Source of the DNA: Kordiimonas aquimaris
GTDB lineage: Bacteria > Pseudomonadota > Alphaproteobacteria > Sphingomonadales > Kordiimonadaceae
NCBI RefSeq assembly: GCF_025574485.1
Contig: NZ_JAOBPO010000001.1
Span: 627,501-691,500, forward strand
Length of the DNA: 64,000 bases
Direction: 5' to 3'
Position 1 is the first letter of the stretch. Every line of letters begins with the position of its first letter. The notes under the pieces were generated by a model that saw only the letters and a program-made list of their open reading frames with translations, was not told the origin of the DNA and did not search any database. The position numbers and the translations under genes are program-made. Below are positions 13,018 through 36,086 of the stretch, piece after piece.

Positions 13018-13072
13018 AGTTACTCAAGCTGAAAATGATAGTTATTAGCTATAATGTAAGATTATATATTTT

Positions 13073-13121
13073 TTGCAAAAAGCTAAGATCATTGCAAATT
13101 GCAATTGCAATTTGCAATGAT
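13073..13121. promoter_or_regulatory. Enhancer region: 34-bp perfect palindrome with two TTGCAA-N-TTGCAA sites
   Basis: 13088-13121 is a perfect 34-bp palindrome. Its core is two abutting 13-bp sites of form TTGCAA-N-TTGCAA (13092-13104 and 13105-13117). TTGCAAAAAGC at 13073-13083 recurs at 23621-23631. The region is 50-95 bp upstream of the sigma-54 promoter at 13169, the usual place for an NtrC-type activator site. Single TTGCAA half-sites continue downstream (13180, 13191). Confidence 0.7.
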
Positions 13122-13168
13122 GCATTATGCCAAGATACATTAACCTAGGCGTATCGGCTGAAAACTGC

Positions 13169-13184
13169 TGGCATAACGATTGCA
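13169..13184 (+). promoter_or_regulatory. Sigma-54 promoter of the H-NOX operon
   Basis: TGGCATAACGATTGCA matches TGGCAY-N5-TTGCW with exact -24/-12 spacing. The predicted transcript starts near 13195, giving a ~58-nt leader with AAGGA before the H-NOX ATG at 13253. The operon encodes its own sigma-54 activator, so autoregulation is likely. Confidence 0.75.
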
Positions 13185-13252
13185 ACGTTATTGCAAGTTG
13201 AAAAGAACTTTGCGAATTCGCAACTTGTCTTGCAATGACACAAGGATAAGCT

Positions 13253-13786
13253 ATGCGCGGTTTAATGTTTACAGAATATTTGGATTATGCGGCATCACTC
13301 GTTTCCGATGATGTAATCGACGCTATATTTAATGACCTAGGTGATGAAGTTACTGGTGCTTATACCGCCGTTGGGAATTATAGTTTCAATGAGTTTGCCG
13401 CTATTCATGTAAAATTAGCTGAATATATGGGTGTTGCACCTGATGAACTTGCTCGTCGTTTTGGTTATTTATTGTTATCGCGATTCAAAGAAATATTCCC
13501 AGCTTACTTTGAAGGTGTAGAGAGTGGATTGGACTTTCTAGAGAAAGTCGGCGCACACATTCACGGTGAAGTTAGGAAGCTGTATCCAGATTCTTCTCCG
13601 CCAAATATCACATTGCATCGCATTGACGAACGATCGTGTGAACTGGTTTATCGTTCTCACAGACCATTGGCTGCCGTTGCGCAAGGCCTTACTGAAGCAT
13701 GCTTTGACGAGTTCGACGATCCATATAAAATTGCCAAGATATTGCCGAATGGAAACCAAACAACCTTTATACTCGAACGGATCTAA
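13253..13786 (+). CDS. H-NOX heme nitric-oxide sensor protein
   Basis: 177 aa, a stand-alone H-NOX (HNOB) domain. Such proteins bind NO on a ferrous heme and control a partner kinase or cyclase. The opening MRGLMFTEYLDYAA is typical. The proximal heme ligand is His104 within AHIHGEVRKLYP, aligned with the conserved IHxEVxKLYP of bacterial H-NOX proteins. The YxSxR heme-propionate clamp is present as Tyr133-Ser135-Arg137. The kinase gene begins 1 nt after the stop, the usual H-NOX/kinase arrangement. No distal Tyr assignment was attempted; NO rather than O2 is the likely ligand. Confidence 0.9.
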   Translation: MRGLMFTEYLDYAASLVSDDVIDAIFNDLGDEVTGAYTAVGNYSFNEFAAIHVKLAEYMGVAPDELARRFGYLLLSRFKEIFPAYFEGVESGLDFLEKVGAHIHGEVRKLYPDSSPPNITLHRIDERSCELVYRSHRPLAAVAQGLTEACFDEFDDPYKIAKILPNGNQTTFILERI

Positions 13787-13787
13787 T

Positions 13788-16070
13788 ATGTCGTCTAGCG
13801 AGGAGATTGATCTATTAAACCGTAAACTGAGCCGAGAGAATAAAGCCCGCCTTGAGGCCGAGCAGTTGCTCGAGGAGAAAAGCGCGGCTCTTTATGAGGC
13901 GAATCAAGCTTTAACAGCAGTTAATAGTGGCCAACAAGAATACCTAACTGTATTGAGCGATTTTGCTTTGGCGATAACAACAATTAAAAGTATTGATGAG
14001 TTAGCATGGTATGTTGTGCGTGAAGTTGTTGGTCGACTAGGGTTCTCTGATTGTGTTTTCTATCTATATGATGCTTCGACGAAGTCTATTATTCAATGTG
14101 CTGCAATTGCTGATAAGAACCCGGAAGGTCAAAAGATACTTAACCCATTAAGTATCTCCTTGGGACAGGGTATAACCGGATCTGTTGCAGCAAGTCGCCG
14201 CCCTGAGATTGTCAATGATGTTTCAACTGATCCACGCTATGTACCAGATATTACACCAGGCGGTTCAGAAGTATGCGTTCCGATGCTTCATGATGGGATA
14301 TTAATCGGTGTTATTGATTGTGAGAGTCCTGAAAAGAACTTTTTTAGTGAGCAACATTTAACCGCTCTTGAAACTGTTGCTTCATATGCAAGTGCAAAAG
14401 TCGCGGAACGCCAGGCACATGACAGAGCTACCGCTCGAACAAAAGACTTGGAACAAAAAATTGTTCAATTGACTAAACTGAAGGAAGAATTGGAGGCAGC
14501 AAAAGAAAAAGCGGAAGAAAGCAGTGCGCTGAAATCCCGCTTCGTTGCTACTATAAGCCATGAGATACGGACTCCTCTGAGCGGGATACTTGGTAGCCTC
14601 GACTTATTGCAGGATGAAGAAATGCCTACCAAAGCTGGAACGCTGGTTGAAATGGCACGAAATAGCGGTCAAACGCTTCAAGCCCTCTTAAATGACGTTA
14701 TTGACTTCGCACGTTCTGAGGCTGGCATGCTTCAAATTGAACCATCAGCTTTTTCAATAATAGAGCTTGTATCTTCGATACAAAGCTTTTGGTTACCGCA
14801 CGCAAAAGCGCGTAATGTAGCGCTGGATATCGACGTTAAAGATGATATAGCAAAAAATTATTGGGGAGACCCCGCGCGTATTCGCCAAATCATTAACAAC
14901 TATTTTTCCAATGCCTTGAAATACGCTAAGTCTGCTCGTCTCATCCTCTCTGTTGAAAATGTAGCTATGGCTGGTGGTGACGGGACCCAAGTTCAATTTT
15001 CTATTATAGATTTTGGTCCCGGGATATCGGCAGAAGATCAAGAACAATTGTTCAGTGAGTTTACCCGTGTTGGTGCACATAAACGACAAATAGGAGACGG
15101 CGCAGGGCTTGGCCTCGCTATTTGTCGCCAAATGGCAGAGCTGATGGATGGCAGTGTCGGGGTTGATAGTCAGCCTGGTTCAGGTAGTCGGTTTTGGCTA
15201 AGATTGCCCATTCAGTCAGTACTAGAGCAAGTTGACGATAGACCTGCGACCACAAGGTCGCTTGATAGTTTCCGCGAGCGACTGGGGGCACGCCCAAGAA
15301 TATTAGTTGCTGAAGATGTGCCGACTAATCAGACAATAATTCGTATGACACTGGAAGCATTTGATTGCCGAGTAACAATAGTCAACAACGGTATCGAGGC
15401 TGTTGAAGCAACGCTTAATCATGATTTTGATCTCATTTTCATGGACATAGCAATGCCTGAAATGGACGGCATGGCGGCCACTTCGAGAATCCATAAGCTT
15501 TTAGGTAAGGAAAAAGCGCCGCCAATTTATGCCTTAACGGCACATGGCATGGATACGGACCGTGAAGAATTTGAAGCAGCTGGCATGGTGGGTATTGTCA
15601 CTAAGCCATTTGACAGGCAAGATTTGTATACTGCTATTGAACAATGCCTTCTCCATGAGAAGACGGGTAAGGAAGATACAAACATACAAGGCATGTATGA
15701 ATTTGATGAACATAGTATGCTTGATCGTGACATGCTCATGGCACTTTTGGACCCGTTAGATACAGATAGTAGGTCTATGCTACTCAATCAATGCATCGCA
15801 GATTTGTCCAGTTGCCTCCAGTTGATAACTGATGGTTTTCATCAAAAAGACACCAAGAAGGTTGCGGATGCCACACATAAGCTTAAGAGTGTAAGTGGTA
15901 CATTTGGGTTGGTGCAGCTACAGCACCTTTCCGGAACAGCAAGTGAGTTAGGCAAGCAAGGTGTGGATGCGGAGTGTTTAGCAACTGCTGAGGTTATTGT
16001 TGATAGACTACCTGTTGGAATTGAAGCCCTTCGTTTGTTGGTAGATGCTCCACCAGTGGGAGAGGTTTAA
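13788..16070 (+). CDS. Soluble hybrid histidine kinase (GAF-HisKA-HATPase-REC-Hpt)
   Basis: 760 aa from ATG 13788, chosen because it lies 1 nt after the H-NOX stop; the frame is open further upstream inside H-NOX. Domains in order: coiled coil 5-45, GAF about 55-200, coiled coil 205-245, HisKA with His258 (ATISHEIRTPLSG), HATPase (N box IINNYFSNALKY, GPGIS, GAGLGLAIC), receiver with Asp553 (DLIFMDIAMPEMDG), and Hpt with His697 (ATHKLKSVSG). There is no membrane segment. It is the probable target of H-NOX, and its Hpt can pass phosphate to the adjacent sigma-54 activator or to the receivers at 34903 and 35385. Confidence 0.92.
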   Translation: MSSSEEIDLLNRKLSRENKARLEAEQLLEEKSAALYEANQALTAVNSGQQEYLTVLSDFALAITTIKSIDELAWYVVREVVGRLGFSDCVFYLYDASTKSIIQCAAIADKNPEGQKILNPLSISLGQGITGSVAASRRPEIVNDVSTDPRYVPDITPGGSEVCVPMLHDGILIGVIDCESPEKNFFSEQHLTALETVASYASAKVAERQAHDRATARTKDLEQKIVQLTKLKEELEAAKEKAEESSALKSRFVATISHEIRTPLSGILGSLDLLQDEEMPTKAGTLVEMARNSGQTLQALLNDVIDFARSEAGMLQIEPSAFSIIELVSSIQSFWLPHAKARNVALDIDVKDDIAKNYWGDPARIRQIINNYFSNALKYAKSARLILSVENVAMAGGDGTQVQFSIIDFGPGISAEDQEQLFSEFTRVGAHKRQIGDGAGLGLAICRQMAELMDGSVGVDSQPGSGSRFWLRLPIQSVLEQVDDRPATTRSLDSFRERLGARPRILVAEDVPTNQTIIRMTLEAFDCRVTIVNNGIEAVEATLNHDFDLIFMDIAMPEMDGMAATSRIHKLLGKEKAPPIYALTAHGMDTDREEFEAAGMVGIVTKPFDRQDLYTAIEQCLLHEKTGKEDTNIQGMYEFDEHSMLDRDMLMALLDPLDTDSRSMLLNQCIADLSSCLQLITDGFHQKDTKKVADATHKLKSVSGTFGLVQLQHLSGTASELGKQGVDAECLATAEVIVDRLPVGIEALRLLVDAPPVGEV

Positions 16071-16072
16071 GT

Positions 16073-17488
16073 ATGGCGGTCAAAGAACAGAAAATCTTGT
16101 TGGTGGAAGATGTTCTATCAATGGCAATGCTATATGAAAAACACCTGCAGGTTGCCGGGATTGTATCTGTAACAGCCGAAAGCCTCGCTGATGCAAGGCA
16201 AGCACAGGCCAAAGACAAGTTTGACCTAATCTTGTTAGATCTCAATTTGCCTGACGGTGACGGCCTTGCGTATTTGGAAGAAATACAAGGCACTGACATG
16301 GAGACACCGGCTATTGTTATTACGGCGGATGCATCTCTTAACAATGCAGTGCGCGCAATGAAACTTGGTGCACTTGATTATCTTGTTAAACCGTTTTCAG
16401 AAAGCCGGCTTGTTACAACGGTAAATAACACGCTTGAACGTGTGCAGCTTCGCCAGCAAGTAGATACGTTGCGGCATAAGCAGCAAGATGGTGCTTTTTA
16501 CGATTTCATTGGCAACTCCGTAGCCATGCAACGTGTGTATCGTACCATTGAAAACGTAGCGGCCTCGAAGGCAACTGTTTTTGTGACAGGTGCTTCAGGG
16601 ACAGGGAAAGAATTGTGTGCCGAAGCTATTCACAAGGCTGGGCCACGCGTTGGAAGGCCATTCGTGCCACTTAACTGTGCTGCGATTCCTCATGATTTGT
16701 TGGAGTCTGAACTTTTTGGTCACTTAAAAGGATCGTTCACGGGAGCTATTTCTGATCGCCAAGGCGCGGCGCGGTCGGCTGAAGGTGGTACACTGTTTTT
16801 GGATGAGATGTGTGAGTTAGACCTCAGTTTACAAAAAAAGCTACTGAGGTTTTTACAGACTAATACAGTACAACCTGTTGGGTCACCCAAAGCTGAGAAA
16901 GTTGATGTTCGTGTGATCTGTGCGACTAATCGCGACCCGTTAGAAGAAGTGCGCGCGGGTCGTTTTCGAGAAGATTTATACTTTAGACTGAATGTTGTAC
17001 CGATCAATTTGCCTATACTTAAAGAGCGCGGCCGCGATGTAATAGACATTGCGCGGTATTTCCTTGAGAAATATGTCGCAGAAGAAGGTAAGAATTTTAA
17101 AGACTTTGCCCCGGATGCACAGGCACTTCTTATGGCTCATTCTTGGCCTGGAAATGTGCGTGAATTGCAAAATACGGTCCGTAACGTTGCTGTCTTGCAA
17201 GATGGCGAATTTGTGACAGCTGCCATGTTTCCGATGCTTGAAGGCCAGAGCTTGGCATCTACAGAAGCCAATAGTCTTGCTACAACCTTTGTTCCTAGCT
17301 CGGATATGAGAGCGAACAAGCCTGCTGACGAAACCTTACTAATGGCTTCACTGGCGGATGTAGAACGAAAAACAATCGAAGATAGGATTGCTGTCTTTGA
17401 TGGATCCATCCCCAAAGCCGCTGACTCTCTCGGCGTAAGCCCTTCTACAATATACCGAAAAAAAGAAACGTGGGAACAAGCAGAGTAA
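16073..17488 (+). CDS. NtrC/LuxO-type sigma-54 response regulator
   Basis: 471 aa: receiver (Asp56 in DLILLDLNLPDGDG), AAA+ sigma-54 activation domain about 140-380 (Walker A GASGTGKE, loop 1 GSFTGA instead of the canonical GAFTGA, Walker B GGTLFLDEM, arginine region RFREDLYFRLNV), and a Fis-type HTH at the end (AADSLGVSPSTIYRK). It begins 2 nt after the kinase stop. The four sigma-54 promoters on the island and the TTGCAA-N-TTGCAA sites are its natural candidate targets. It resembles both LuxO, which also ends an H-NOX relay in Vibrio, and PrsR-type exosortase-locus regulators. Confidence 0.92.
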   Translation: MAVKEQKILLVEDVLSMAMLYEKHLQVAGIVSVTAESLADARQAQAKDKFDLILLDLNLPDGDGLAYLEEIQGTDMETPAIVITADASLNNAVRAMKLGALDYLVKPFSESRLVTTVNNTLERVQLRQQVDTLRHKQQDGAFYDFIGNSVAMQRVYRTIENVAASKATVFVTGASGTGKELCAEAIHKAGPRVGRPFVPLNCAAIPHDLLESELFGHLKGSFTGAISDRQGAARSAEGGTLFLDEMCELDLSLQKKLLRFLQTNTVQPVGSPKAEKVDVRVICATNRDPLEEVRAGRFREDLYFRLNVVPINLPILKERGRDVIDIARYFLEKYVAEEGKNFKDFAPDAQALLMAHSWPGNVRELQNTVRNVAVLQDGEFVTAAMFPMLEGQSLASTEANSLATTFVPSSDMRANKPADETLLMASLADVERKTIEDRIAVFDGSIPKAADSLGVSPSTIYRKKETWEQAE

Positions 17489-17489
17489 A

Positions 17490-19499
17490 TCACAACGCTG
17501 CCTTAATAGCTGTTTGAATATCCTTTAATGTAGCGTTGTATTCTTGCTGTCCAGGCTCCAGTTTCACAGCTTGGAGTGCCATTTTTTCTGCTCTATCCAA
17601 GTCTTTGTTTTTATCAAGAAGTCTTACAGCAAGATTGTTTAATGCCATATGGTTTTCAGGAGAGATTTCCAGAATGGCCCGATAACTGGCAATAGCTAGA
17701 TTGTAATCTCTATTTTGTTCGCTGTATGCAGCAAGGATTGATAACCTATCGGTAAGGAGCTTCGTGGTGCTTTCAGATGTCACCATTATGCCTCGCGCCT
17801 GCATTTCCAGCCTCGAAATGCTGGTCCACCAATGTGCAAGTTCTGCAGGCCCAATATTTCGACCTTCTTCATAATATTTAATGGTTAATCTGAGCGCAGC
17901 AATGGCACTATCAGGTTCAGTTTTTGCTGCTGTTGCCAAGTGAGCGTAGGCAGCATCTAGGTCATCAAAATAAGCGTACCCTGCCGACGCTAGTAGCTGA
18001 GACGTTGCATCATCTGGTGCCCATTTTAACACAGGCCTTAGTAAACGAAGGCCCTCAGCCATACTATCGTCCGTCTCTTTAGCGATCGCTGAACGTGCTT
18101 TGGCAACGCGCCATAATGTGGCTTCATTAGGGCTTTTTTCACGCAACTGTTCCAAAAGTGCAGCTTCAGGTTTGTAACCAGCAGCGAGCGCTGTACGCCA
18201 TGCATCGAAATTAGAAGAGTCTGCATATAACTTCTGACCCATGCATGATGTGTCGGATTTGCCGCAGCTCTTGGTTTCTTTGTTGATCATGTTTCTTACG
18301 AAAACACCTCGATTACCCAGGCCAAGCATTTGAGCATGTTTTTCGTGCTTGCCAGCAAGGGCTTCTTCACCAATGGACCTATATAGGTTTTCGAGTAACT
18401 GATGGGCGATAGCGCTCGATGTGACAATGTTTTTCATATTGCTTAATGCGTCGATTGTACGACTTGGGTTGATGGTGTCCGCTTCAAGCTCTTTCAGGAG
18501 CTGACCCCAACGGCTAGCGGTATATATACCATGCCGTCTCTTGTACTCATGCTGGTTAAAGCCAGTTCTACACGATTGATTTAGTTGTTTTTGAGCCAAA
18601 CAAACTATCATATTAACTTCAGCTGGTATGATGCCGCTGTGAGGACGTGTCAGAAAACTTGATAACACATCATATTCTGCACGTTTCCAAAGAAGGCGAG
18701 CATGCCTTTTCAACAAACTGCCCGGCATTAAACGGGTTGGTTGGTTTAATAACGCAATTGCGGCAAGCTCATCACCTTGAGAAACAAGCAAAGATGTGGC
18801 TACGGCAAGATCGTTGTCAGAAAGTGTGGAAGACAATGACTTTATGTCCTCTTGAGTTAATGTTGTAGCCTGCCGACTTGTTGACTTAGCGGCTAGACGA
18901 GCAAATGAACTTGGTATGTCTGGGGCAAGTTGAGATGCAATAGCGAGTAAATCACCGTTGTTTCTCAATAGTTTCAAGATCATTGCCCATTGGAAAAGCG
19001 AGGCGTCACTTTCGCTAAATCGGAGCAAATCTTCTTCAGCAGCTTCAAGGTCTTGCAAGCGCAGTGATGCTGATAAGCCTATTAATGCAGCTTTGGCGCC
19101 AGATACGCGCCGCGCCAATTTCTGGGCATTATACCAATCGCCGCGAACAAGGTTTGCAGAGGCTTCCGTTAAGCTGTAGCTGGTATCTCTTTGGAGATTC
19201 CAGCCTAATTTTGTGAGTAATAGCTGTTGGTTTGTATGTGCATTGTCAGGCAATGGCACTTCCAAACGTGCTTCGCTGAGCAGTTTAACAGCAGCAACGT
19301 CTGACTTGCTTCTGCATTTACTTTGAGAAAAATAAAGAGTGAGCTCTTTGATGGCATCTGCATGGTACCCATCGTTTTGGAGAGTGGTCGCTGTGTCTAG
19401 CCAATCATTACAACGTTTGTCTGTGATTTTATTATAGCTGATGTAAGCGCCGGCTGCTGCTGCTGCAATGAGCGCTGCGAATGCTACTTTCTTAATCAT
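17490..19499 (-). CDS. Membrane-anchored TPR protein of the exosortase operon
   Basis: 669 aa from ATG 19499, which overlaps the exosortase stop by one base (TGATG) and has GGAG upstream; an ATG at 19514 is in the same frame. One N-terminal membrane segment (VAFAALIAAAAAGAYISY) is followed by a long helical, TPR-like region; the clearest repeats are at the end (NLAIASYRAILEISPENHMALNNLAVRLL). TPR proteins of this kind (PrsT-like) accompany exosortase/polysaccharide loci, but orthology was not tested. It is last in the leftward sigma-54 operon and ends 2 nt from the convergent regulator gene. Confidence 0.75.
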   Translation of the reverse strand: MIKKVAFAALIAAAAAGAYISYNKITDKRCNDWLDTATTLQNDGYHADAIKELTLYFSQSKCRSKSDVAAVKLLSEARLEVPLPDNAHTNQQLLLTKLGWNLQRDTSYSLTEASANLVRGDWYNAQKLARRVSGAKAALIGLSASLRLQDLEAAEEDLLRFSESDASLFQWAMILKLLRNNGDLLAIASQLAPDIPSSFARLAAKSTSRQATTLTQEDIKSLSSTLSDNDLAVATSLLVSQGDELAAIALLNQPTRLMPGSLLKRHARLLWKRAEYDVLSSFLTRPHSGIIPAEVNMIVCLAQKQLNQSCRTGFNQHEYKRRHGIYTASRWGQLLKELEADTINPSRTIDALSNMKNIVTSSAIAHQLLENLYRSIGEEALAGKHEKHAQMLGLGNRGVFVRNMINKETKSCGKSDTSCMGQKLYADSSNFDAWRTALAAGYKPEAALLEQLREKSPNEATLWRVAKARSAIAKETDDSMAEGLRLLRPVLKWAPDDATSQLLASAGYAYFDDLDAAYAHLATAAKTEPDSAIAALRLTIKYYEEGRNIGPAELAHWWTSISRLEMQARGIMVTSESTTKLLTDRLSILAAYSEQNRDYNLAIASYRAILEISPENHMALNNLAVRLLDKNKDLDRAEKMALQAVKLEPGQQEYNATLKDIQTAIKAAL

Positions 19500-21711: not shown

Positions 21712-21712
21712 T

Positions 21713-23489: not shown

Positions 23490-23505
23490 CGCAATCCACA
23501 TGCCA
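23490..23505 (-). promoter_or_regulatory. Sigma-54 promoter of the leftward exosortase operon
   Basis: Read leftward, TGGCATGTGGATTGCG matches TGGCAY-N5-TTGC exactly. Transcription would start near 23479, 27 nt before ATG 23452, with GAGG in the leader. It is divergent from the promoter at 23690 and shares the enhancer region between them. Confidence 0.75.
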
Positions 23506-23613
23506 ACTGGCCGGACCGATTAAGTCGTTGAAAAAGCTTATCTTTTATAGATTTTTGGTTTTTTGCATTCTTTGCAAAATGCGAATTTCATTCGAGTTTG
23601 AGAATTTTTCACT

Positions 23614-23631
23614 GTGCAAATTGCAAAAAGC
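23614..23631. promoter_or_regulatory. Enhancer site between divergent EPS promoters
   Basis: GTGCAA-A-TTGCAA (23614-23626) matches the TTGCAA-N-TTGCAA site of the H-NOX promoter in all but one base, and TTGCAAAAAGC (23621-23631) is an exact copy of 13073-13083. It lies about 65 bp from the rightward and 110 bp from the leftward sigma-54 promoter, so one bound activator could serve both. GCATT-N8-AATGC with an inner TTTGCAAA at about 23566-23583 may be a second site. Confidence 0.65.
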
Positions 23632-23689
23632 AAAACGGGTCAATTATTTTTTCTTTATATTTTTCAGTATCTTAAGTGATGCGGTGAAA

Positions 23690-23705
23690 TGGCACAGCGA
23701 TTGCG
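23690..23705 (+). promoter_or_regulatory. Sigma-54 promoter of the rightward EPS operon
   Basis: TGGCACAGCGATTGCG is a full match to TGGCAC-N5-TTGC. The predicted transcript start (about 23716) coincides with the ATG at 23717, so this mRNA would be leaderless or nearly so. Confidence 0.8.
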
Positions 23706-23716
23706 ACGATAGGGCC

Positions 23717-28782: not shown

Positions 28783-29717
28783 GCATCATAATCGTCAATT
28801 GGAATACACGCGCTATGTTGCGAGATTGCCTGCATTCAGTCTTTGATGGCAGCCCTAAAGGCAGTTTTGAGGTTCTAGTGGTTGATAACGCATCAAATGA
28901 TGGCAGTGCAGCTATGGTGTCCAGAGAATTTCCAGCTACGAGGCTTTACTGCAATAGTGAAAATGTTGGTTTTGCCGCAGCGAACAACCAAGTGATTCAA
29001 AGAGCAAGAGGCAGGTATATCTTGCTTTTGAATTCAGACACCCTTGTTCATGGTGATGTTCTTCAGCAATCAATAGAATTTATGGATTCAGATTCAAATG
29101 CAGGTGCAATGGGGTGTCGGGTTTTAAATAGAGATGGAACGCTTCAACATAGCACAAGCCAATTCCCTTCTTTCCTGAATTTGACAATGCAAACATTGGG
29201 ATTGGACCGCATAAACGGTGTTCCATTTTTTAAACGTTACCGCATGTTGGATTGGGATAGAACGACGACACGGAATGTAGATACTGTGTCTGGATGTTAT
29301 ATGATGGTGCGCCGTGAATGTGTCAATGAAGTTGGCCTTTTGGATGAACGTTTCTTCTTTTTCGGTGAAGAGACCGATTGGTGCAGGCGAATGAGAGCAG
29401 CTGATTGGGATGTGGTGTTTGCGCCTGTAGGCGAAATAACACATTTTGGTGGAGGCAGTTCTGGAGGCCTTAATCACAAGCGCGATGTTATGCTTTCGGA
29501 AGCAACCGTGAAGTTACACCGAAAGTATAATGGTCCTGTTGTTTCTTTAGCCGTGTTTCTTTTGTTGTTTGTTTTCAATAGCAGCCGTTTTGTTTTCTGG
29601 TGGTTCCAGTCACGCCGTGCAAATGGTCGAAATCATTTGGTGCGGATGAAGCATTTCTTCAATGTAACAGTTAGTTTTGCTGCTGCATGGCCGACAGGCA
29701 AGGGGACAATGTCATGA
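28773..29717 (+). CDS. Family 2 glycosyltransferase (rhamnosyltransferase-like)
   Basis: 314 aa. GT-A fold: LSIIIVNWNTRAMLRDCLHSV, VVDNASNDGS, ENVGFAAANNQ, the DxD-like LLLNSDT and, later, LLDERFFFFGEETDWCRRM, the signature of WbbL-type GT2 enzymes. A C-terminal hydrophobic helix (VVSLAVFLLLFVFNSS) suggests membrane association. It adds one sugar to the lipid-linked repeat unit; donor unknown. It overlaps the polymerase gene by 10 nt and the next gene by 4 nt. Confidence 0.9.
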   Translation: MDLSIIIVNWNTRAMLRDCLHSVFDGSPKGSFEVLVVDNASNDGSAAMVSREFPATRLYCNSENVGFAAANNQVIQRARGRYILLLNSDTLVHGDVLQQSIEFMDSDSNAGAMGCRVLNRDGTLQHSTSQFPSFLNLTMQTLGLDRINGVPFFKRYRMLDWDRTTTRNVDTVSGCYMMVRRECVNEVGLLDERFFFFGEETDWCRRMRAADWDVVFAPVGEITHFGGGSSGGLNHKRDVMLSEATVKLHRKYNGPVVSLAVFLLLFVFNSSRFVFWWFQSRRANGRNHLVRMKHFFNVTVSFAAAWPTGKGTMS

Positions 29718-31027
29718 ATTGGCGGCCTAAAGTAATGGCACTTGCCCCGTATTGTGATGGTACAGATGTTGGTGAAGCCTGGTGTGCCTATATGTGGATC
29801 AATGAATTGTCAAAGCAGGCTGACGTAACATTAATTTCATTCGAGCGCCCCGGTAGAAAGCCACTGAGCGAACAATTGCCGGATGTAACCGTTATTTCAA
29901 AACTTGAACCATCGTGGACGCGCCGATTTGAACGGATTAACGCAATGGCGAAGCTGTCATATCCTGCATATTACAGGTGGGCCAAACGGCAGATTAAAAT
30001 TCTTCTGAAAACTGATACTGCGTTTGATATTGGCCATCAATTTTCGCCGATCGCTCTACGCTTTCCGTCACCGTTCAAGTGTTTTGATTTGCCTTATTTT
30101 TTAGGCCCTCTGGGGGGTAGTCTTTCAACACCATCTGCGTTTGAAAAAGAATGTGGAAGTGCTGCATGGTACACGCGATTTCGTAGCCTCGATAAGTGGC
30201 GGTTGTCCTTAGACCCAATGTTGAAAAGTAGTTATAGGAAAGCTTCGGGTATTCTTGGAGTAGCTCCTTATGTCGAAGATGCGATAGGTCATACTAATAT
30301 ACGCCGATTTAAAGTGATGAGCGAGCTTGGCATTACTGAACTTCATGAAAGATCCAGTTCAAAGTTCTCTCATGCAGGTTTGCGTCTTTTACACGTGGGC
30401 CGCGGTGTCAGAACTAAGGGACTTCGTGACTGCGTAAGAGCAATGGAATTGCTTCGTGATGTACCTGGAATTCACCTCGATGTGGCGGGTAAAGGTGAAG
30501 AAATGGAGCTATGCAAAGAGTTGGCTGAAGATTTAAATATCAGCCATTTAATAACGTTTCATGGTCAAATAACACGAGAAGAAGTGGATACACTTTACTC
30601 TAGAGCAGATGTGTTTTGCTTCCCGAGCTTTCGTGAGCCGAGTGGTAGTGTTGTCTTTGAAGCATTAAGTCATGGGTTACCTGTAATTGTAGCTGACCGC
30701 GGTGGGCCGGGCCATGTTGTAGACGACAGTTGCGGGTTTAAGGTCGCGGTAACCGAGCCAGATTTGTTTGCAGGGCAAATTGCGACTGCGGTTCGCACGC
30801 TTGCTTCTATGCCAGAGCTTCGTCGGCGTTTGTCCGATGGAGCAATCCAAAAAATGACCAAAATCGGCCTTTGGCCAGCAAAAATTGCACAACTTTTATC
30901 AATGTACGAACATGTTCTAAACATACCTCAAAATAAGAAGGAGACATCGTCATCATGCCTAAATCACAGAAAAAAACCAAAATCCTTGCCGTTGCTTCCG
31001 GAGGAGGCCATTGGATCCAAATGCTAA
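29714..31027 (+). CDS. Family 4 glycosyltransferase
   Basis: 437 aa from ATG 29714 (ATGA overlap with the preceding stop). GT-B fold with a glycosyl-transferase-1 domain: LRLLHVGRGVRTKGLRDCVRAM, LDVAGKGEEM, and the donor-site stretch FCFPSFREPSGSVVFEALSHGLPVIVADRGGPGHVV with the E-x7-E pattern. The last ~25 codons overlap the next gene by 73 nt and look unconserved. One sugar addition in EPS repeat synthesis. Confidence 0.9.
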   Translation: MNWRPKVMALAPYCDGTDVGEAWCAYMWINELSKQADVTLISFERPGRKPLSEQLPDVTVISKLEPSWTRRFERINAMAKLSYPAYYRWAKRQIKILLKTDTAFDIGHQFSPIALRFPSPFKCFDLPYFLGPLGGSLSTPSAFEKECGSAAWYTRFRSLDKWRLSLDPMLKSSYRKASGILGVAPYVEDAIGHTNIRRFKVMSELGITELHERSSSKFSHAGLRLLHVGRGVRTKGLRDCVRAMELLRDVPGIHLDVAGKGEEMELCKELAEDLNISHLITFHGQITREEVDTLYSRADVFCFPSFREPSGSVVFEALSHGLPVIVADRGGPGHVVDDSCGFKVAVTEPDLFAGQIATAVRTLASMPELRRRLSDGAIQKMTKIGLWPAKIAQLLSMYEHVLNIPQNKKETSSSCLNHRKKPKSLPLLPEEAIGSKC

Positions 31028-31419
31028 GGCTACGGCCTGCCTTTCGTGATTGTGATGTTACTTATGTCACAGTGAATCTAGGTTCTAGGTCTGAAGTTGG
31101 TGACAGCCCGTTTTATGTCATTCCAGATGGAAACCGTGATACGAAGTTATCGCTTATTCTGATGGCAATCCGTGTTTTATATCTGGTGTTACGTGTGCGC
31201 CCAAATGTTGTAGTTTCCACGGGTGCTGCACCAGGTTATTTTGCTTGTCGCTTTGCCAAGTTGGTTGGGGCAAAGAGCCTCTTTATTGATAGCGTTGCAA
31301 ATGCTGAAGAAATGTCTCTGTCAGCTAAACTTGCTACATCCCATGCTAGCCGTGTGTTCAGTCAGTGGCCAAGAGTGGCTGAAAAGTTTGGCGTAGAGTG
31401 TCACGGGAGCGTTCTCTAA
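30955..31419 (+). CDS. ALG14/PssD-like glycosyltransferase membrane subunit
   Basis: 154 aa. It resembles the N-terminal half of a GT28 enzyme: KILAVASGGGHWIQMLRL with the glycine-rich acceptor loop, hydrophobic LSLILMAIRVLYLVLRV that anchors it to the membrane, and VVSTGAAPGYFACRFAKLVGAKSLFIDSVAN. In EPS systems this subunit pairs with an ALG13/PssE protein to make one enzyme. The partner follows at 31488, separated by a promoter/terminator element. It begins inside the preceding GT4 frame with GAAGGAG upstream. Confidence 0.88.
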   Translation: MPKSQKKTKILAVASGGGHWIQMLRLRPAFRDCDVTYVTVNLGSRSEVGDSPFYVIPDGNRDTKLSLILMAIRVLYLVLRVRPNVVVSTGAAPGYFACRFAKLVGAKSLFIDSVANAEEMSLSAKLATSHASRVFSQWPRVAEKFGVECHGSVL

Positions 31420-31431
31420 CTAAATTGCGAC

Positions 31432-31447
31432 TGGCACAGGCATTGCT
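31432..31447 (+). promoter_or_regulatory. Internal sigma-54 promoter before the ALG13-like gene
   Basis: TGGCACAGGCATTGCT matches TGGCAC-N5-TTGC exactly, 12 nt after the ALG14-like stop. Transcription would begin near 31458, at the loop side of the hairpin at 31446-31480, so this transcript would lack most of the left stem arm. Confidence 0.72.
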
Positions 31448-31487
31448 CCTTCTAGGACAGAAAACAAGTCCTAGAAGGAGATTTTTT
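31446..31487 (+). terminator. Terminator-like hairpin sequestering a ribosome binding site
   Basis: CTCCTTCTAGGAC (31446-31458) and GTCCTAGAAGGAG (31468-31480) form a perfect 13-bp stem with a 9-nt loop, followed by ATTTTTT and then the ATG at 31488. It has the form of an intrinsic terminator, and its right arm contains AAGGAG, the ribosome site of the next gene. Read-through RNA from upstream could form it; RNA from the promoter at 31432 could not. Confidence 0.7.
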
Positions 31488-31991
31488 ATGATTTTTGCAA
31501 CTGTTGGAACCCAATTACCATTTGATAGATTAATTACGTCATTGGAAAAATGGTCATTGAAACAGAATGTTAGTGGTTGCTTTGCCCAAGTGGGTCCAGA
31601 AGGAAAGGTGCCTCAGCATATAGAAAGTGCGGCCACATTAACACCTTTGCAATTTGCAAAACAGGTTGCGGATTGCAAAGTCATTGTTTCGCATGCTGGT
31701 ATGGGCACCATTCTGACTGCCTTGCAACATTGCAGACCAATTATCGTTATGCCCCGGCTTGTTAAGTTTGGCGAACACCGGAATGATCATCAATTGGCGA
31801 CCGTTTCAAACCTTGAAGACCGTGAGGGCATCCATGTTGCGCGAAGTGAAGACGAATTATTTGAGAAATTAGATGCCATAGCATCTCTTGAAACTGGGGA
31901 TGGTGCATCCGTTTCCGCTGAGCCTCAACTGCTTTCGGCAATTGGTCATTTCATCATGAGCAACGGTGCTTCGGGAGACACTCATGCCTAG
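31488..31991 (+). CDS. ALG13/PssE-like glycosyltransferase catalytic subunit
   Basis: 167 aa from ATG 31488, preceded by AAGGAG. It is the C-terminal half of a GT28 fold: MIFATVGTQLPFDRLITSLEKW, then the donor-binding VIVSHAGMGTILTALQHCRPIIVMPRLVKFGEHRNDHQ. It should form a heterodimer with the ALG14-like protein to transfer a sugar nucleotide donor. Being expressed from its own sigma-54 promoter while its partner is upstream is notable. It overlaps the next gene by 8 nt. Confidence 0.9.
   Translation: MIFATVGTQLPFDRLITSLEKWSLKQNVSGCFAQVGPEGKVPQHIESAATLTPLQFAKQVADCKVIVSHAGMGTILTALQHCRPIIVMPRLVKFGEHRNDHQLATVSNLEDREGIHVARSEDELFEKLDAIASLETGDGASVSAEPQLLSAIGHFIMSNGASGDTHA
31647..31659. promoter_or_regulatory. 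TTGCAA-N-TTGCAA site inside the ALG13-like gene
   Basis: TTGCAATTTGCAA is a perfect copy of the 13-bp motif in the H-NOX promoter palindrome, 200 bp downstream of the internal sigma-54 promoter. Enhancer proteins can work from downstream, but the bases also encode ordinary residues (LQFAKQ), so its use as a site is inference. Confidence 0.45.
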
Positions 31992-32844
31992 TATGCCTAA
32001 ATGTACTGTTATTATCCCCGCATTTAATGAAGAAGCGGCGATTGGTGGAACCCTTGGTGCTTTGCAGACAGGTATGTTTCCGGGTGAGTTTGATATTATC
32101 GTTGTGTGTAATGGATGCACGGATCAGACAGTCAGAAAGGCACATAGTGTAGCGCCGAGCGCTAAAGTCGTTGATATTCAATTACCGTCAAAGACGATGG
32201 CTTTAAATGTTGGTATCGCTGCAGCAAAACATAAACCGATCGTTTTCCTTGATGCGGATATCAAAACAAGCCCGGAAGCGGTGCGCTCACTTGTGAACAC
32301 CCTTCTTGATGGCGGTATTTACCTTGCATATGGAAATGCGTTTCTACAAACGAGAGAAAGCAGCGTAAACGTTAGAGCTTTTTATCGTGCTTGGTCTCAA
32401 AATGGCTACTTTGATAATCGTAAAGTCGGTGGTTTTTTTGCTATAAGTTCTGCTGGATTAAAGTGTCTGGGTACTTTTCCTGATGTCATTAATGATGATG
32501 AGTTTGTGCGCCGCCAGTTGAGCGAGCGCTCTCTTTGGGTTGAACACGCTCAGTATGTCGTTCGGGCACCACTAACGCTCAAAAGCCTTATGAAGGTTCG
32601 TAGTCGCGTATACAGAGGAAATGCTCAATTGGAGCGCTCGGCGTTTGCTTTAGGAGCGTGGCAGAAATTCAAGAATGCCTGTATTTTTTTAGGAAGGTTG
32701 TTTGTTCGCCCAATGCTTTGGCATGGTGCTATCGTTTTTCTGTCAGTTTCTGTTGCCGCACATATCCGAAATCGTTTGTTCGTTGGCAAAAAACCAACCT
32801 GGGAGCAAGATCAAAGTGCTCGCAATATATGTGCTGAGGTGTAA
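31984..32844 (+). CDS. Family 2 glycosyltransferase
   Basis: 286 aa from ATG 31984 (GGGAG upstream; overlaps the preceding stop by 8 nt). GT-A fold with CTVIIPAFNEEAAIGGTLGAL, DIIVVCNGCTDQT and the metal-binding IVFLDADIKTS. A late hydrophobic segment (VRPMLWHGAIVFLSVSVAAH) is probably membrane-associated. It adds a sugar in EPS assembly; donor unknown. Confidence 0.87.
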   Translation: MPSMPKCTVIIPAFNEEAAIGGTLGALQTGMFPGEFDIIVVCNGCTDQTVRKAHSVAPSAKVVDIQLPSKTMALNVGIAAAKHKPIVFLDADIKTSPEAVRSLVNTLLDGGIYLAYGNAFLQTRESSVNVRAFYRAWSQNGYFDNRKVGGFFAISSAGLKCLGTFPDVINDDEFVRRQLSERSLWVEHAQYVVRAPLTLKSLMKVRSRVYRGNAQLERSAFALGAWQKFKNACIFLGRLFVRPMLWHGAIVFLSVSVAAHIRNRLFVGKKPTWEQDQSARNICAEV

Positions 32845-32849
32845 GCACC

Positions 32850-34922
32850 ATGAGTGTTCAAGGCATAGATGGTGATGCTGCCGAAACTGTTGGCAATCCT
32901 GCTTTATGGCAAGTTAAGGATTTTGTGGAGGAAAATGCTCCAGCACCGGTGAATCCAGTTAAAGCTGTAACCCGCATTTACCGTGGACAATGGGGTAAGC
33001 TCGCCGGTTTGGCCTTGTTGCTGGGACTCGGTTTTGCATTCATTGCTTACACCGTTGTTAAGCCTGTTTTTGAAAGCCAGGGATTGGTACGTGTTGTCGC
33101 AAAAGAACCCAAGATATTATATGCTGATAATGATGATAGCCGCTTGAGGCTTTACGATGCTTTTGTTTCAGCAGAGGCTACATATATACAAAGCCAACAA
33201 GTGCTCTCGCGTGCCCATGAAATTCTGATCGAAAAACTGGATGATCAAGGTTATGTGGGGCCACGCCCTCGATTAAGGGACGTTATCGATGCGCTTGAAG
33301 TCAAGAAATTAAAGGGCTTAATTGCGGTTAGCGGGAAGAGTACTGATGGCACCAGAGCGCAGCAGCTTGTAAACGCTCTCCTCGCCAGCTATGCGGAGCT
33401 TCATGAGCGGCAGTCTGACTCGCGGCAAATCCTTCGTGCACGTGAACTAGAGGTGCGCGTTCAAGAACTTATGGCAAAGCAGTATACCTTGAACAAGGAA
33501 TTGCTGGAGGTTGGAGAAGAATACGATGCGTCTTCTTTAGCAAAGGCGCATTTAACCAAAGTGACTCAACTCGAGGAATTGGATATTCGCGTTGGAGAAT
33601 TGACCAACACCTTGGTGGAAATGGAGACGACGGACGGTGCACTTGATGCAGATACAGGAGACATGGAAATCAAACGGGCCACGTTGTTGGACCGCGCCAT
33701 GGCTGACATGGTCTTTGAACGGGCAAAACGCGCTGCTGAATTGGAGAAACTGAAATTGCGCTACATGTCAGAGCACCCGAAAGTAGCAAATTTAACTGCT
33801 TCTTTGCAGGTGATTGATGATGCTATCGAGTCCCGCCGCCGCCTTATTGCAACACTTGGTAAGACAGGTGCAATCACTGGTGCTGACGGTGCCGCAAAAT
33901 CGCAATCATTGGCAGAATTAAATGCACTGAAAAGGAAGTTAATAGCGCGCCGGAATGAACTCTCTATCAACGCCAAAGATCTCAACAGTAAACTCATTCA
34001 ACTCAAGCGTATTAACGCTGAACAATTCCAGATCGCAGGGATGCTTGCTGAAACACGCCGCATACTTGACCAAGTGCGTCTGGAAAGCAGGAATAGTCTA
34101 CCAGGAACGATTGAAGTGCTTTCCCGCGGCAACATGCCTGATTCAGCAGCTAGTGACAAGCGTGCTCAATTTGCCATGGTTGGGTTCATGGCGGGTTGTT
34201 TTTTTGCGGCAGTTTTACTCTTTGCACGAAGACAGCTGTCTTCCAGCATAATATACAGTGACGATGTTGAAATTGCGCCTTCACATGCAGGTGTAGATTT
34301 AGCTGTGTTGTCACCGGCCCCAACCTGTTCCGATATGGCAATTTTCTTGAGCCAATTGCAATTCAGCGGGCATTGGAGAAGAGACAGAACCAATGTTATT
34401 AGCATTGTTCGCTTCGATCCAGAGACGCATGTTCCGCTAACTCCACTGGCCGAAGTTGCAATCCATCAGGGGTTAAAGACCTTAGTCGTTTGTGCAGCTG
34501 ATGATGGAGCCAATGAAAATTCTGGATTTATTGAAAGCATATGTTACGGCGAAGAAATTAGGATAAGTACAGAGAGCTCCTTTGACTACATATCATTTGG
34601 GAGCAGAGGAAGGGCCGAGGGCTATAGTATTGATGCTGCCAGAAACTGGCTACAAAAGCACGCTCAGCAATACGATCTGGTTTTAATTTACACAGGAGTG
34701 GTGGAACAGCATTATTCTACGCGGGTTTTACCTTCTCTGTCTGATCTCACAATCGCTTCTATATCCCCAGGTAATGAAAAGCGCCTTGTTCGACGTTTTA
34801 CTTCTCAATGTCAGAATTTAGTCCCCTTGTTTTTTGGCGCACGCAAAGACGACCCCAATCTTGCCCAAACTGAAACCAAGTCAACCTCACCGAAAGGATT
34901 TGATGATGCAAAAGCTGCGTAA
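32850..34922 (+). CDS. Wzz/Wzc-like polysaccharide co-polymerase with degenerate kinase domain
   Basis: 690 aa. A first membrane segment (LAGLALLLGLGFAFIAYTVV, about 50-70) starts the Wzz-type periplasmic domain with long coiled coils (residues 190-430), and a second (FAMVGFMAGCFFAAVLLF, 437-456) ends it. The cytoplasmic 230 residues resemble a BY-kinase Rossmann domain (NVISIVRFDPE, LKTLVVCAADD, YDLVLIYTG) but have no Walker A Gly-Lys-Ser/Thr, no Walker A' aspartates and no Tyr cluster at the C-terminus. It probably sets chain length and contacts the OPX channel without kinase activity. Confidence 0.85.
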   Translation: MSVQGIDGDAAETVGNPALWQVKDFVEENAPAPVNPVKAVTRIYRGQWGKLAGLALLLGLGFAFIAYTVVKPVFESQGLVRVVAKEPKILYADNDDSRLRLYDAFVSAEATYIQSQQVLSRAHEILIEKLDDQGYVGPRPRLRDVIDALEVKKLKGLIAVSGKSTDGTRAQQLVNALLASYAELHERQSDSRQILRARELEVRVQELMAKQYTLNKELLEVGEEYDASSLAKAHLTKVTQLEELDIRVGELTNTLVEMETTDGALDADTGDMEIKRATLLDRAMADMVFERAKRAAELEKLKLRYMSEHPKVANLTASLQVIDDAIESRRRLIATLGKTGAITGADGAAKSQSLAELNALKRKLIARRNELSINAKDLNSKLIQLKRINAEQFQIAGMLAETRRILDQVRLESRNSLPGTIEVLSRGNMPDSAASDKRAQFAMVGFMAGCFFAAVLLFARRQLSSSIIYSDDVEIAPSHAGVDLAVLSPAPTCSDMAIFLSQLQFSGHWRRDRTNVISIVRFDPETHVPLTPLAEVAIHQGLKTLVVCAADDGANENSGFIESICYGEEIRISTESSFDYISFGSRGRAEGYSIDAARNWLQKHAQQYDLVLIYTGVVEQHYSTRVLPSLSDLTIASISPGNEKRLVRRFTSQCQNLVPLFFGARKDDPNLAQTETKSTSPKGFDDAKAA

Positions 34923-35385
34923 ACTACTAATACTCGATGATGACCCACACTATTCTGGCATGCTTGCCCTTAAGCTTCGCATGCAGTTTCCAGAATTGTT
35001 AATTAGCTCAAGTGAGCGTGACACTGTGTTAAGCGGATATGACATTTATATTCTTGATAATGATTTTTCAGGGGAAAAATGCGGAGCCAAACTCGCAGAA
35101 GAAGTGCGGCAGGTCACGCCTGAAAGTCTGGTGGTCGTTTTGTCAGGCACTCTTGAATTTTCTCTGCTGAAACGGCTCGTTAATTGTCATGCTGCAGGCG
35201 TTTTCGATAAAAGCAGTGATGCTGACATTGAAGCCATGAAAGTAATGATAGAGCGTTATCTTATGGCTACACCTGTTCAAGCGTCGCTCCCAAAACACTC
35301 AATTAAAAGCACAGTTAGCAACGTTAAAGAGCTGATTGCCGAGTGGAATCGTAAGCTGGCGTTCGAAGAGAGGAGGGTTCAGTGA
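34903..35385 (+). CDS. Stand-alone receiver-domain protein
   Basis: 160 aa from ATG 34903, with AAAGGA 4 nt upstream, overlapping the co-polymerase stop. A CheY-like receiver: LLILDDDP acidic pocket, phosphoacceptor Asp52 (IYILDNDFSG), Ser in VVVLSGT and Lys in GVFDKS. The final 55 residues are not recognisable. It has no output domain, so it probably relays or buffers phosphate within the system; the Hpt of the kinase at 13788 is a candidate donor. It is coupled to the next receiver gene. Confidence 0.85.
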   Translation: MMQKLRKLLILDDDPHYSGMLALKLRMQFPELLISSSERDTVLSGYDIYILDNDFSGEKCGAKLAEEVRQVTPESLVVVLSGTLEFSLLKRLVNCHAAGVFDKSSDADIEAMKVMIERYLMATPVQASLPKHSIKSTVSNVKELIAEWNRKLAFEERRVQ

Positions 35386-36086
35386 TGTGTAAAACGGGCA
35401 AAAGAATACTCATTGTTGAAGATACAGATAGTATTGCGCTACTTTTGGAAGCGAACCTTCGTCAACAAGGGTATGTGCCAGAAGTGGCCGGCACGGTAAA
35501 GCAAGCACTTGAGTGCTTTAAAAAAGCTGAAGCTGGACCAATACCATATGACTTGTTGTTACTTGACGTGAGCCTGCCAGATGGGAACGGACTCTCCTTG
35601 CTAGAGCAATTGGTCTCTCTTGAAAACTGTCCTCCTATATTTGTTTTAAGTGCAGATGGTTCTTCAATAGCAAAAGAAAATGCACGCTTATCGGGTGCAT
35701 CCATGTTTTTTGAAAAGCCGTTTAATTTTCCGCGGCTTAATGAGGCGATCAATCAGCATATCGTGCATAAAAAGCCTGAGCGTTATGCTGTATGTGATGT
35801 AGATATTGAGGCCGAAAAAAAAGCGCTGACAAAAAGCTACCGCGATTATCTTAAAAATGTAGCTGAGCAGCTCCAAGGTGGTATGTCACATAAAGCCCTC
35901 ACATCGTTACTCCACCAATTGAAAGGTAGCGCACACTTGTACGGCCTTAATCGATTGTCGGAATTGTCAACAGCGTTGGGAGAGCAACTTATTAACCTGG
36001 GACCTAAAGCGGCGCCTGAGGTTAAATCGGTTCTCAGGCAAGAGATAATTGTTGATGTTGACTCAAATTCAATATTTGCAGATTAG
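35385..36086 (+). CDS. Receiver-Hpt phosphorelay protein
   Basis: 233 aa from ATG 35385 (AGGAGG upstream; the TGA of the previous gene overlaps its A). A receiver with Asp61 (DLLLLDVSLPDGNG), Ser/Thr and Lys positions (FVLSADG, FFEKPF), then an Hpt domain with His177 (LLHQLKGSAHLYGLNRL). Such proteins can take phosphate from one relay and pass it to another. It is last in the EPS operon, which therefore ends with two signalling proteins that match the multi-step relay encoded by the H-NOX operon. Confidence 0.88.
   Translation: MCKTGKRILIVEDTDSIALLLEANLRQQGYVPEVAGTVKQALECFKKAEAGPIPYDLLLLDVSLPDGNGLSLLEQLVSLENCPPIFVLSADGSSIAKENARLSGASMFFEKPFNFPRLNEAINQHIVHKKPERYAVCDVDIEAEKKALTKSYRDYLKNVAEQLQGGMSHKALTSLLHQLKGSAHLYGLNRLSELSTALGEQLINLGPKAAPEVKSVLRQEIIVDVDSNSIFAD

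Follow-up and report, generated by a model that had tools for sequence, protein, structure and literature searches.

Could one mobile element carry a gas sensor together with the matrix genes that it switches? The question is raised by a 64,000-nucleotide stretch of Kordiimonas aquimaris DNA (the window), in which an operon for an H-NOX protein, a hybrid kinase and a sigma-54 activator (RR54) lies next to exopolysaccharide (EPS) and exosortase operons (Table 1). The host is a marine Kordiimonas-type bacterium.

Table 1. Genes and predicted sites of the island (window positions; a point in the strand column means no strand)
Feature	Position	Strand	Remarks
tRNA-Arg(CCG), integration target	5378..5454	+	
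attL	5410..5460	.	51-bp exact direct repeat
Tyrosine integrase	6007..7239	+	PF00589, 59.4 bits; arm-binding domain
imuA(?)-imuB-dnaE2, presumed mutasome cassette	7474..13017	+	IMS and DNA_pol3_alpha domains
34-bp perfect palindrome	13088..13121	.	two perfect LuxO-type sites (13092-13104, 13105-13117)
Sigma-54 promoter P1, H-NOX operon	13169..13184	+	conserved in 8/11 loci
H-NOX	13253..13786	+	PF07700, 88.2 bits (cut-off 25.5); His104, YxSxR
Hybrid kinase GAF-HisKA-HATPase-REC-Hpt	13788..16070	+	
RR54, LuxO-like REC-AAA+-Fis sigma-54 activator	16073..17488	+	
TPR protein, weakly PrsT-like	17490..19514	-	TIGR02917, 46.4 bits (cut-off 312.2)
Exosortase fused to EpsI domain	19499..20866	-	PF09721 and PF11984
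DUF4114 protein, likely exosortase substrate	20863..21711	-	predicted LecB-like calcium lectin
Phosphoglycosyltransferase (PGT)-Wza (OPX) fusion	21713..23452	-	internal lipobox Cys249
Sigma-54 promoter P2, exosortase operon	23490..23505	-	11/11 loci
Shared enhancer region	23572..23633	.	one-mismatch LuxO-type sites at 23572, 23607, 23614, 23621
Sigma-54 promoter P3, EPS operon	23690..23705	+	before PST in 11/11 loci
EPS genes: pyruvyl transferase, flippase, FrhB-like, Wzy, GT2, GT4, Alg14-like	23717..31419	+	
Sigma-54 promoter P4, before alg13	31432..31447	+	10/10 loci
Alg13/PssE-like glycosyltransferase (alg13)	31488..31991	+	
Perfect LuxO-type site inside alg13	31647..31659	.	
GT2 and 690-aa protein	31966..34922	+	
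REC-like protein and REC-Hpt protein	34906..36086	+	REC-like by eye, no family match; REC-Hpt from 35382
Chaperone-like protein	36242..36796	+	by eye, no family match
attR	37405..37455	.	51-bp exact direct repeat

Extent of the island

The 3' end of tRNA-Arg recurs as a 51-bp exact direct repeat, and the two copies bound a 32-kb island. Tyrosine integrase, tRNA target and direct repeats are those of a tRNA-targeting integrative element, in line with the single mobile element of the preliminary description, the limits of which (13018-36086) have to be moved to 5410-37455. Excision or transfer of this tRNA-Arg integrative island is putative. In the island composition test the flanks served as background, a choice favouring a difference. 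The genes preceding the H-NOX operon we take to be an imuA-imuB-dnaE2 mutasome cassette, the first of them lacking a Pfam match and being named imuA by position only. Mobility is seen for the window copy only; no tRNA was present in 20 stretches around the locus copies of ten relatives and G002, and the ORFs called around the relatives' copies included no homologue of the integrase encoded in the window.

Sensor, kinase and activator

Family profiles and gene order agree with the proposed operon of H-NOX, hybrid kinase and sigma-54 activator; as in the HnoX-HahK type, H-NOX and kinase share one operon and the sigma-54 regulator follows downstream. His104, which we take to be the proximal haem ligand, is invariant in all 13 aligned H-NOX proteins, and 12 of 13 aligned rows have YxSxR (Y133, S135, R137) entire, as has the window protein, so both are as intact as first described. 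Assuming the roles commonly ascribed to the proximal His and YxSxR in H-NOX, the window protein would bind NO through haem. The kinase gave no match to membrane domain families in a family profile search; its H258, D553 and Hpt H697 are invariant (8/8), as is D56 of RR54 (11/11 aligned rows). The AAA+ loop reads GSFTGA in the 10 H-NOX-linked RR54 rows and GAFTGA in a core paralogue discussed below. PrsK/PrsR-type systems had been named as governing some exosortase loci; RR54 is LuxO-like rather than PrsR-like (549 vs 361 bits): its best family was the LuxO equivalog NF041946, with 549.2 bits still below the curated cut-off of 800, and PrsR (TIGR02915) was rejected at 361.1 bits against a curated cut-off of 502.6.

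According to our proposal, which we consider rather probable, the island is a complete, self-wired matrix module leading from NO via H-NOX, kinase and RR54 to four promoters; gene content and synteny, the att repeats, the sites for promoters and enhancers and the conserved phosphorelay residues can be read directly from the DNA. NO would bind the H-NOX haem and, by contact of H-NOX with the kinase encoded alongside, change the activity of the latter. Phosphate would then pass from His258 via Asp553 and Hpt His697 to Asp56 of RR54, and RR54~P, binding TTGCA-N3-TGCAA enhancers, would together with RpoN fire the four promoters. At its own operon promoter RR54~P would exert positive feedback; the other targets would be the promoter of the PGT-Wza/lectin/exosortase/TPR operon, that of the EPS operon and the internal one before alg13. 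The output would be exopolysaccharide plus an exosortase-processed DUF4114 protein, a probable LecB-type lectin gluing cells to it. Inhibition of the kinase by NO, with the matrix switched off as a result, is the likely sign, which we favour because of the analogy with Vibrio fischeri (see below).

Promoters and enhancer sites

Sigma-54 consensus promoters had been noted at the starts of the EPS and exosortase operons, and P2 and P3 indeed recur in 11 of 11 loci each. The three sites of the original set stand, and a fourth, P4, had been overlooked. P3 lies 27 bp before the start (exactly at -27 at PST in 9 of 11 loci), which predicts a near-leaderless EPS mRNA. Single sites are modest: shuffled upstream regions of P1-P3 give a site scoring at least 8.5 in 1-23%, and 16 more sigma-54 sites with scores of at least 9.5 occur elsewhere in the loci of the 11 locus-bearing genomes, mostly intragenic. 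Perfect TGGCAYN5TTGC matches number 37 genome-wide, vs 18 for the reversed-pattern control, and four of the 37 fall within the 23-kb locus. It is the positional conservation across loci that makes the four promoters more than chance. In one genome (G006), alg13 and the right half were not seen because its sequence stops shortly past the divergent promoters.

Beside the H-NOX, PGT-Wza/exosortase and EPS promoters, LuxO-type sites show an enrichment of about 30-fold. As at LuxO targets, TTGCAW3TGCAA sites and sigma-54 promoters are conserved at the predicted targets of RR54, which supports the earlier view of one regulatory operon connected to both the EPS and the exosortase operon; the sites are predicted enhancers to which RR54 would bind. 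A site within alg13 was found in 9 of 10 loci vs 0.63 expected under synonymous recoding (the p-value takes as independent loci that are related), and this disfavours a mere by-product of coding. The result is a predicted regulon of four promoters, the enhancer code of which can be read from the sequence.

This raises the question if the sites are read by RR54 at all, or if a core LuxO-like paralogue is the chief activator of P1-P4 and the neighbouring H-NOX secondary, so that the island would be read out by a host regulator. One further LuxO-like match exists in each of 29 Kordiimonadaceae genomes (shared neighbourhood read in four); that of the window's own genome is 49% identical to RR54, exceeds it on the LuxO model (602.6 vs 549.2) and has one perfect LuxO-type site 77 bp upstream. 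The corresponding gap of the three other genomes read lacks this site, however, and in all four genomes the gap before the paralogue is free of sigma-54 sites scoring at least 9. Furthermore, genomes with only the paralogue lack the locus, and promoters with such sites accompany RR54 and H-NOX, in a second family as well (plain counts). We regard control by the paralogue as quite improbable and retain RR54 as the activator. A Qrr-like RNA beside the paralogue was considered and dropped (no Rfam match in four loci, no sigma-54 site of at least 9).

Exosortase operon and polysaccharide genes

The exosortase operon is present as described, but its first gene has to be corrected to a PGT-Wza fusion. 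The exosortase reaches 70.2 bits with PF09721 (cut-off 25.7), and C172, R217 and H237 are invariant in 10/10. XrtD (TIGR04152) is its best NCBIfam match and VPLP in the substrate recalls VPLPA-CTERM, but identity to plasmid XrtD is 22-23%; membership was rejected for XrtD (85.9 bits, curated cut-off 400) and for XrtA (35.9 bits, cut-off 208). The search for plasmid copies of the window exosortase returned only remote XrtD, in 3 records.

The DUF4114 protein ends in VPLPG, a hydrophobic stretch and a basic tail, and is likely processed by the exosortase. Its residues E220, D221, D227, D229, N231 and D232 are invariant in 40/40 sequences and align with the LecB calcium loop, where the corresponding positions presumably act as calcium ligands. 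These six acidic/Asn positions, and possibly the predicted fold, resemble LecB (PA-IIL), from which the protein differs by a three-residue loop insertion, an N-terminal extension and the exosortase-type tail. We propose a calcium-lectin function for DUF4114: the protein is probably a LecB-type calcium lectin, with predicted sugar binding. The structure model used was built from 40 sequences; a first one from 9 sequences (pLDDT 43) was set aside. In the EPS operon, the Wzy assignment rests on a score below cut-off; the 690-aa protein, with no Pfam or NCBIfam match, was judged Wzc/GumC-like from its sequence.

Occurrence in relatives

A genome search for H-NOX/kinase/activator operons next to exosortase-EPS loci, as the preliminary description had advised, yielded 10 further Kordiimonadaceae genomes, 9 of them with H-NOX. 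The flanks of these loci differ, and one promoter and enhancer grammar is common to the H-NOX and EPS/exosortase units; both argue against plain adjacency, i.e. the chance sharing of an island by a passenger H-NOX operon and an unrelated EPS cluster. Although the island also bears the unrelated mutasome cassette, we hold such adjacency to be extremely improbable.

A more serious, though still unlikely, alternative accepts the path from RR54 via sigma-54 to EPS and exosortase genes, but lets H-NOX sense redox state, oxygen or CO, or only fine-tune, with the GAF domain or another kinase as the main input. It would fit the kinase's own GAF domain, the absence of a NirK match over the cut-off, and G019, in which the locus has other kinases and no detected H-NOX. 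On the other hand, H-NOX and the locus co-occur, the haem-ligand His and YxSxR are conserved, and RR54-type regulators lie at most 6 kb from H-NOX in 19 of the 33 other H-NOX-positive genomes of the order. NO sensing by H-NOX is kept as the preferred input. EPS genes are present alongside in 17 of these other genomes of the order. Wherever H-NOX and activator are encoded with no kinase gene in between, as in the second family, the partner of H-NOX may be the activator itself or a kinase encoded far away.

The promoter and enhancer counts that include the second family drew on 53 loci and scored those with an H-NOX BLAST match; the other nine gave no RR54 match over 300 bits. At L227, L231, L232 and L233, the RR54-like matches near H-NOX (34-41%, 221-282 bits) are LuxO-like or other NtrC-like. 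The phylum sample comprised 20 neighbourhoods read out of 103 H-NOX genomes, and the regulator tree excludes L194, L201, L203 and G002 (all H-NOX-linked) as well as L063, L066 and L169, for which fewer than 300 aa were read. We give even chances to a wider idea: the pairing of H-NOX with a LuxO-type sigma-54 activator would be a general and transferable switch from NO to matrix in the order, and also in at least one genome from another class, with an enhancer code of its own that includes an enhancer inside alg13. The Kordiimonas version would be a full mobile kit for polysaccharide and an exosortase-processed LecB-type lectin, both switched off or on by NO.

Relation to known systems

In Vibrio, the quorum circuit of H-NOX, HqsK and LuxU continues to LuxO. 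From the available parts of two reports on this circuit (PMC3759921, PMC6759604), the window resembles it in the H-NOX input towards a LuxO-type activator and in an equal enhancer consensus, TTGCAW3TGCAA; its output is qrr small RNAs, in contrast to the structural EPS, lectin-like and exosortase operons of the window. In Vibrio fischeri, according to the sections at hand, the kinase of the hnoX-hahK operon reaches SypG, the sigma-54 activator of the syp polysaccharide cluster, with Hpt supplied by SypF or LuxU (PMC12369376, PMC10162802). HnoX-HahK-SypF-SypG-syp thus shares with the window an H-NOX and kinase operon, a sigma-54 activator and a polysaccharide cluster. There, hnoX-hahK and syp are separate units and these sections name no exosortase, whereas the window holds one mobile unit, the kinase of which contains REC and Hpt.

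With this functional precedent, the window circuit varies a known kind of system: the Vibrio circuit from H-NOX via sigma-54 to polysaccharide is extended to a recurrent alphaproteobacterial module and put on an island. The initial statement that no H-NOX/sigma-54/exosortase system had been described holds insofar as our literature search found no paper joining H-NOX and exosortase, but the H-NOX/sigma-54/EPS link is not unique. The search also found no paper uniting H-NOX, sigma-54 and exopolysaccharide, none combining exosortase, nitric oxide, polysaccharide and sigma-54, and, among the matches listed, none on H-NOX in sphingomonads.

In the PrsK/PrsR/PrsT system of PEP-CTERM bacteria, a sigma-54 response regulator and a TPR protein are found by exosortase/EPS genes with sigma-54 promoters (PMC1569441, PMC9850573, as far as the accessible text goes), and the former describes what stimulates PrsK as obscure. 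The window likewise has a sigma-54 regulator, a TPR protein and sigma-54 promoters by exosortase/EPS genes; unlike that system it encodes a haem sensor, its substrate carries VPLPG instead of PEP, and its scores stay below the PrsR and XrtA cut-offs. Here a haem gas sensor and a sigma-54 activator are encoded in one transcription unit near an exosortase operon that is preceded by LuxO-type sites and sigma-54 promoters, which makes the question of the stimulus directly testable.

The locus and its island

The H-NOX, exosortase and EPS operons of the window (the locus) represent a real, conserved and unusually complete form of an already known circuit type. In this 3.81-Mb genome, the complete locus lies between tRNA-Arg(CCG), which is followed downstream by a tyrosine integrase gene, and an exact 51-bp copy of the last bases of this tRNA. 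The GC content of the island (0.465) is like that of its flanks (0.468 and 0.472), and its trinucleotide usage is mildly different with the flanks as background. The mutasome cassette (imuB/dnaE2) that it also carries is richer in GC (0.527). No tRNA was found in 20 stretches surrounding the relatives' copies of the locus, and none of 10 proteins scanned from their flanks matched an integrase family; mobility is documented for the window copy only.

Features of the window and of related neighbourhoods
Feature	Position	Strand	Description
tRNA-Arg(CCG)	5378-5454		
imuB/dnaE2 cassette	7474-13017		
H-NOX	13253-13786	+	PF07700
Kinase	13788-16070	+	GAF, HisKA, HATPase, REC, Hpt
RR54	16073-17488	+	REC, sigma-54 AAA+, Fis
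PGT-Wza	21713-23452	-	phosphoglycosyltransferase-Wza fusion
Promoter P3 to PST start	23690-23717		
51-bp repeat	37405-37455		
Core LuxO-like paralogue	L206:9093-10520; G000:C1:496387-496866		
Second H-NOX (G010, G023)	L028:17185-17778; L035:3358-3951		
DUF4114+DUF4842 protein	L217:9464-11143		
EPS cluster relatives	L078:2979-10834		planctomycete contig

Conservation in the Kordiimonadaceae

The preliminary description had suggested searching for H-NOX/kinase/activator operons next to exosortase-EPS loci, and relatives do carry them. Among 29 Kordiimonadaceae genomes, including Kordiimonas laminariae (G010), Eilatimonas milleporae (G003) and an uncultured Kordiimonas (G024), H-NOX and the exosortase of the locus each occur in 11, together in 10, and 17 have neither (Fisher p=5.8e-6, uncorrected for kinship). 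The single occurrences are H-NOX in G002 and the exosortase in G019, a 76% complete genome. Gene order is identical in the relatives and the flanks differ. Departures are seen in G003, where the sigma-54 activator RR54 precedes H-NOX and kinase, in G028, where RR54 and the H-NOX/kinase pair are transcribed divergently, and in G019, where other kinases take the place of the sensor operon and RR54 lies on a separate contig; in G006 the contig stops shortly past the divergent promoters. Judged from the G019 sequence, the sensor operon is replaceable while promoters and enhancers remain. Two genomes, G010 and G023, have an additional H-NOX gene in divergent orientation at the far end of the EPS locus, accompanied by a kinase-like protein of 442 aa.

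Regulatory genes

H-NOX is the first of three co-directional genes with short gaps, followed by the kinase and RR54. The phosphorelay residues H258, D553 and H697 of the kinase are invariant in 8/8 aligned orthologues, as is D56 of RR54 in 11/11. The best family for RR54 is LuxO (549 bits, below its cut-off of 800); the PrsR model reaches 361 bits, below its cut-off of 502.6. In a tree of 40 RR54 rows, which leaves out seven hits, the Kordiimonadaceae locus regulators form one clade (100/97). Two other rows fall within it: one from G019 that lacks H-NOX linkage, and the second of the H-NOX-linked G028 copies. On this tree, H-NOX linkage involves 3 changes versus 10.5 in shuffles. An additional LuxO-like match was present in every one of the 29 genomes. 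A core LuxO-like paralogue is encoded roughly 5 kb from rpoN and is preceded by a single perfect LuxO-type site.

Output operons

The leftward operon encodes the PGT-Wza fusion, a DUF4114 protein, an exosortase-EpsI fusion and a TPR protein; at the C-terminus of the DUF4114 protein, VPLPG is followed by a hydrophobic segment and a few basic residues. The exosortase retains Cys172, Arg217 and His237 in 10/10 rows and scores above cut-off for the general models PF09721 and TIGR04178, and below that of each named Xrt subfamily listed. Its strong form (E below 1e-160) was found in 11 of 296 genomes of the order (GTDB Sphingomonadales), and all 11 are Kordiimonadaceae. The rightward operon is a Wzx/Wzy-type EPS cluster whose last genes encode REC and REC-Hpt proteins. 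All 9 of 9 PGT-Wza sequences retain an internal lipobox cysteine (Cys249; the window protein reads LLLLTAC), so lipoprotein signal peptidase may split the chain into two proteins.

Sigma-54 promoters and LuxO-type sites

Promoters were scanned with the sigma-54 consensus TGGCAC-N5-TTGCW (GG and GC required). Sites were found ahead of PGT-Wza (P2; G002, whose match is a different protein, was left out) and of the pyruvyl transferase gene PST (P3) in 11/11 loci each, ahead of H-NOX (P1) in 8/11 and ahead of alg13 (P4) in all 10 loci with this gene. G003 has the site before RR54 instead of H-NOX; in G028 and G002 the scan found none ahead of H-NOX. P3 lies exactly 27 bp ahead of the PST start codon in nine loci, and from this spacing a near-leaderless mRNA is predicted. 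Since shuffled P1-P3 upstream regions gave a site scoring at least 8.5 in 1-23% of cases, and 16 additional sites scoring at least 9.5 occur elsewhere across the 11 loci (three inside alg13 at a similar position), lone sites are weak proof, and the argument rests on position and recurrence. The genome of the window has 37 perfect matches to TGGCAYN5TTGC, four of these within the locus, versus 18 for the reversed pattern.

The LuxO site is given as TTGCAWWWTGCAA in PMC11443567 and PMC10162802. The window has two adjacent perfect sites within a 34-bp perfect palindrome, 52 bp (near edge) and 77 bp (far edge) upstream of P1; three of the genome's 12 perfect sites belong to the locus. Allowing up to one mismatch, 21 sites lie upstream of H-NOX (8/11 loci; 0.67 expected), and the divergent region has 19 (10/11 loci; 0.71 expected). 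A perfect site also occurs inside alg13 in 9/10 loci, where synonymous recoding predicts 0.63 loci; counted from the start, it sits at position 159 in some loci and 178 in others, and two reading frames are involved. Enhancers downstream of the promoter are known for the sigma-54 activators FlrC and FlbD.

Proposed circuit

The likely path would lead from NO via H-NOX and the kinase to RR54 and the four sigma-54 promoters, with RR54 feeding back on its own operon. In Vibrio fischeri, according to PMC12369376, HnoX inhibits HahK and NO inhibits biofilm formation. The sign of the NO effect is taken from this species by analogy; it could be the reverse here. NirK as an NO source gave no match above cut-off. 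Within the literature searched, four features are new: the circuit is gathered on one mobile unit, its output includes an exosortase and a lectin-like protein, its enhancer code extends to a site inside a gene, and H-NOX is repeatedly paired with LuxO-type activators in genomes throughout the order.

Occurrence beyond the Kordiimonadaceae

H-NOX is present in 44 of the 296 genomes of the order, and the H-NOX neighbourhoods of all 33 outside the Kordiimonadaceae were read. An RR54-type regulator (399-476 bits) lies within 6 kb of H-NOX in 19 and in none of the remaining 14; in 18 of the 19 it follows H-NOX immediately with no kinase between, L187 having an intervening kinase. These 19 loci carry, by counts made with no shuffle control, a sigma-54 site scoring at least 9.5 ahead of H-NOX (19/19), one or more LuxO-type sites that are perfect or deviate at a single position (18/19, perfect in seven) and at least three genes belonging to a single EPS cluster (17/19).

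Outside the order, the linkage was found in one of 16 class genomes (G421, with an intervening kinase), whose neighbourhood yielded neither promoter nor EPS gene, and in one of 20 neighbourhoods of the phylum sample (L217 of G886, 343 bits). L217, from another class, has H-NOX, kinase and RR54 with a divergent Wza-Wzy cluster. Its DUF4114+DUF4842 protein has a sigma-54-like site upstream and no exosortase-type tail. On a planctomycete contig, relatives of the EPS cluster (GT2, GT4, Alg14, Alg13, GT2, Wzc) adjoin a DUF4114 protein. A sigma-54 response-regulator-like gene is found on the stretch of 10 of 48 non-Kordiimonadaceae DUF4114 loci (L056-L103), namely L057, L062, L063, L064, L066, L075, L077, L084, L094 and L097, in seven cases on the opposite strand within 5 kb.
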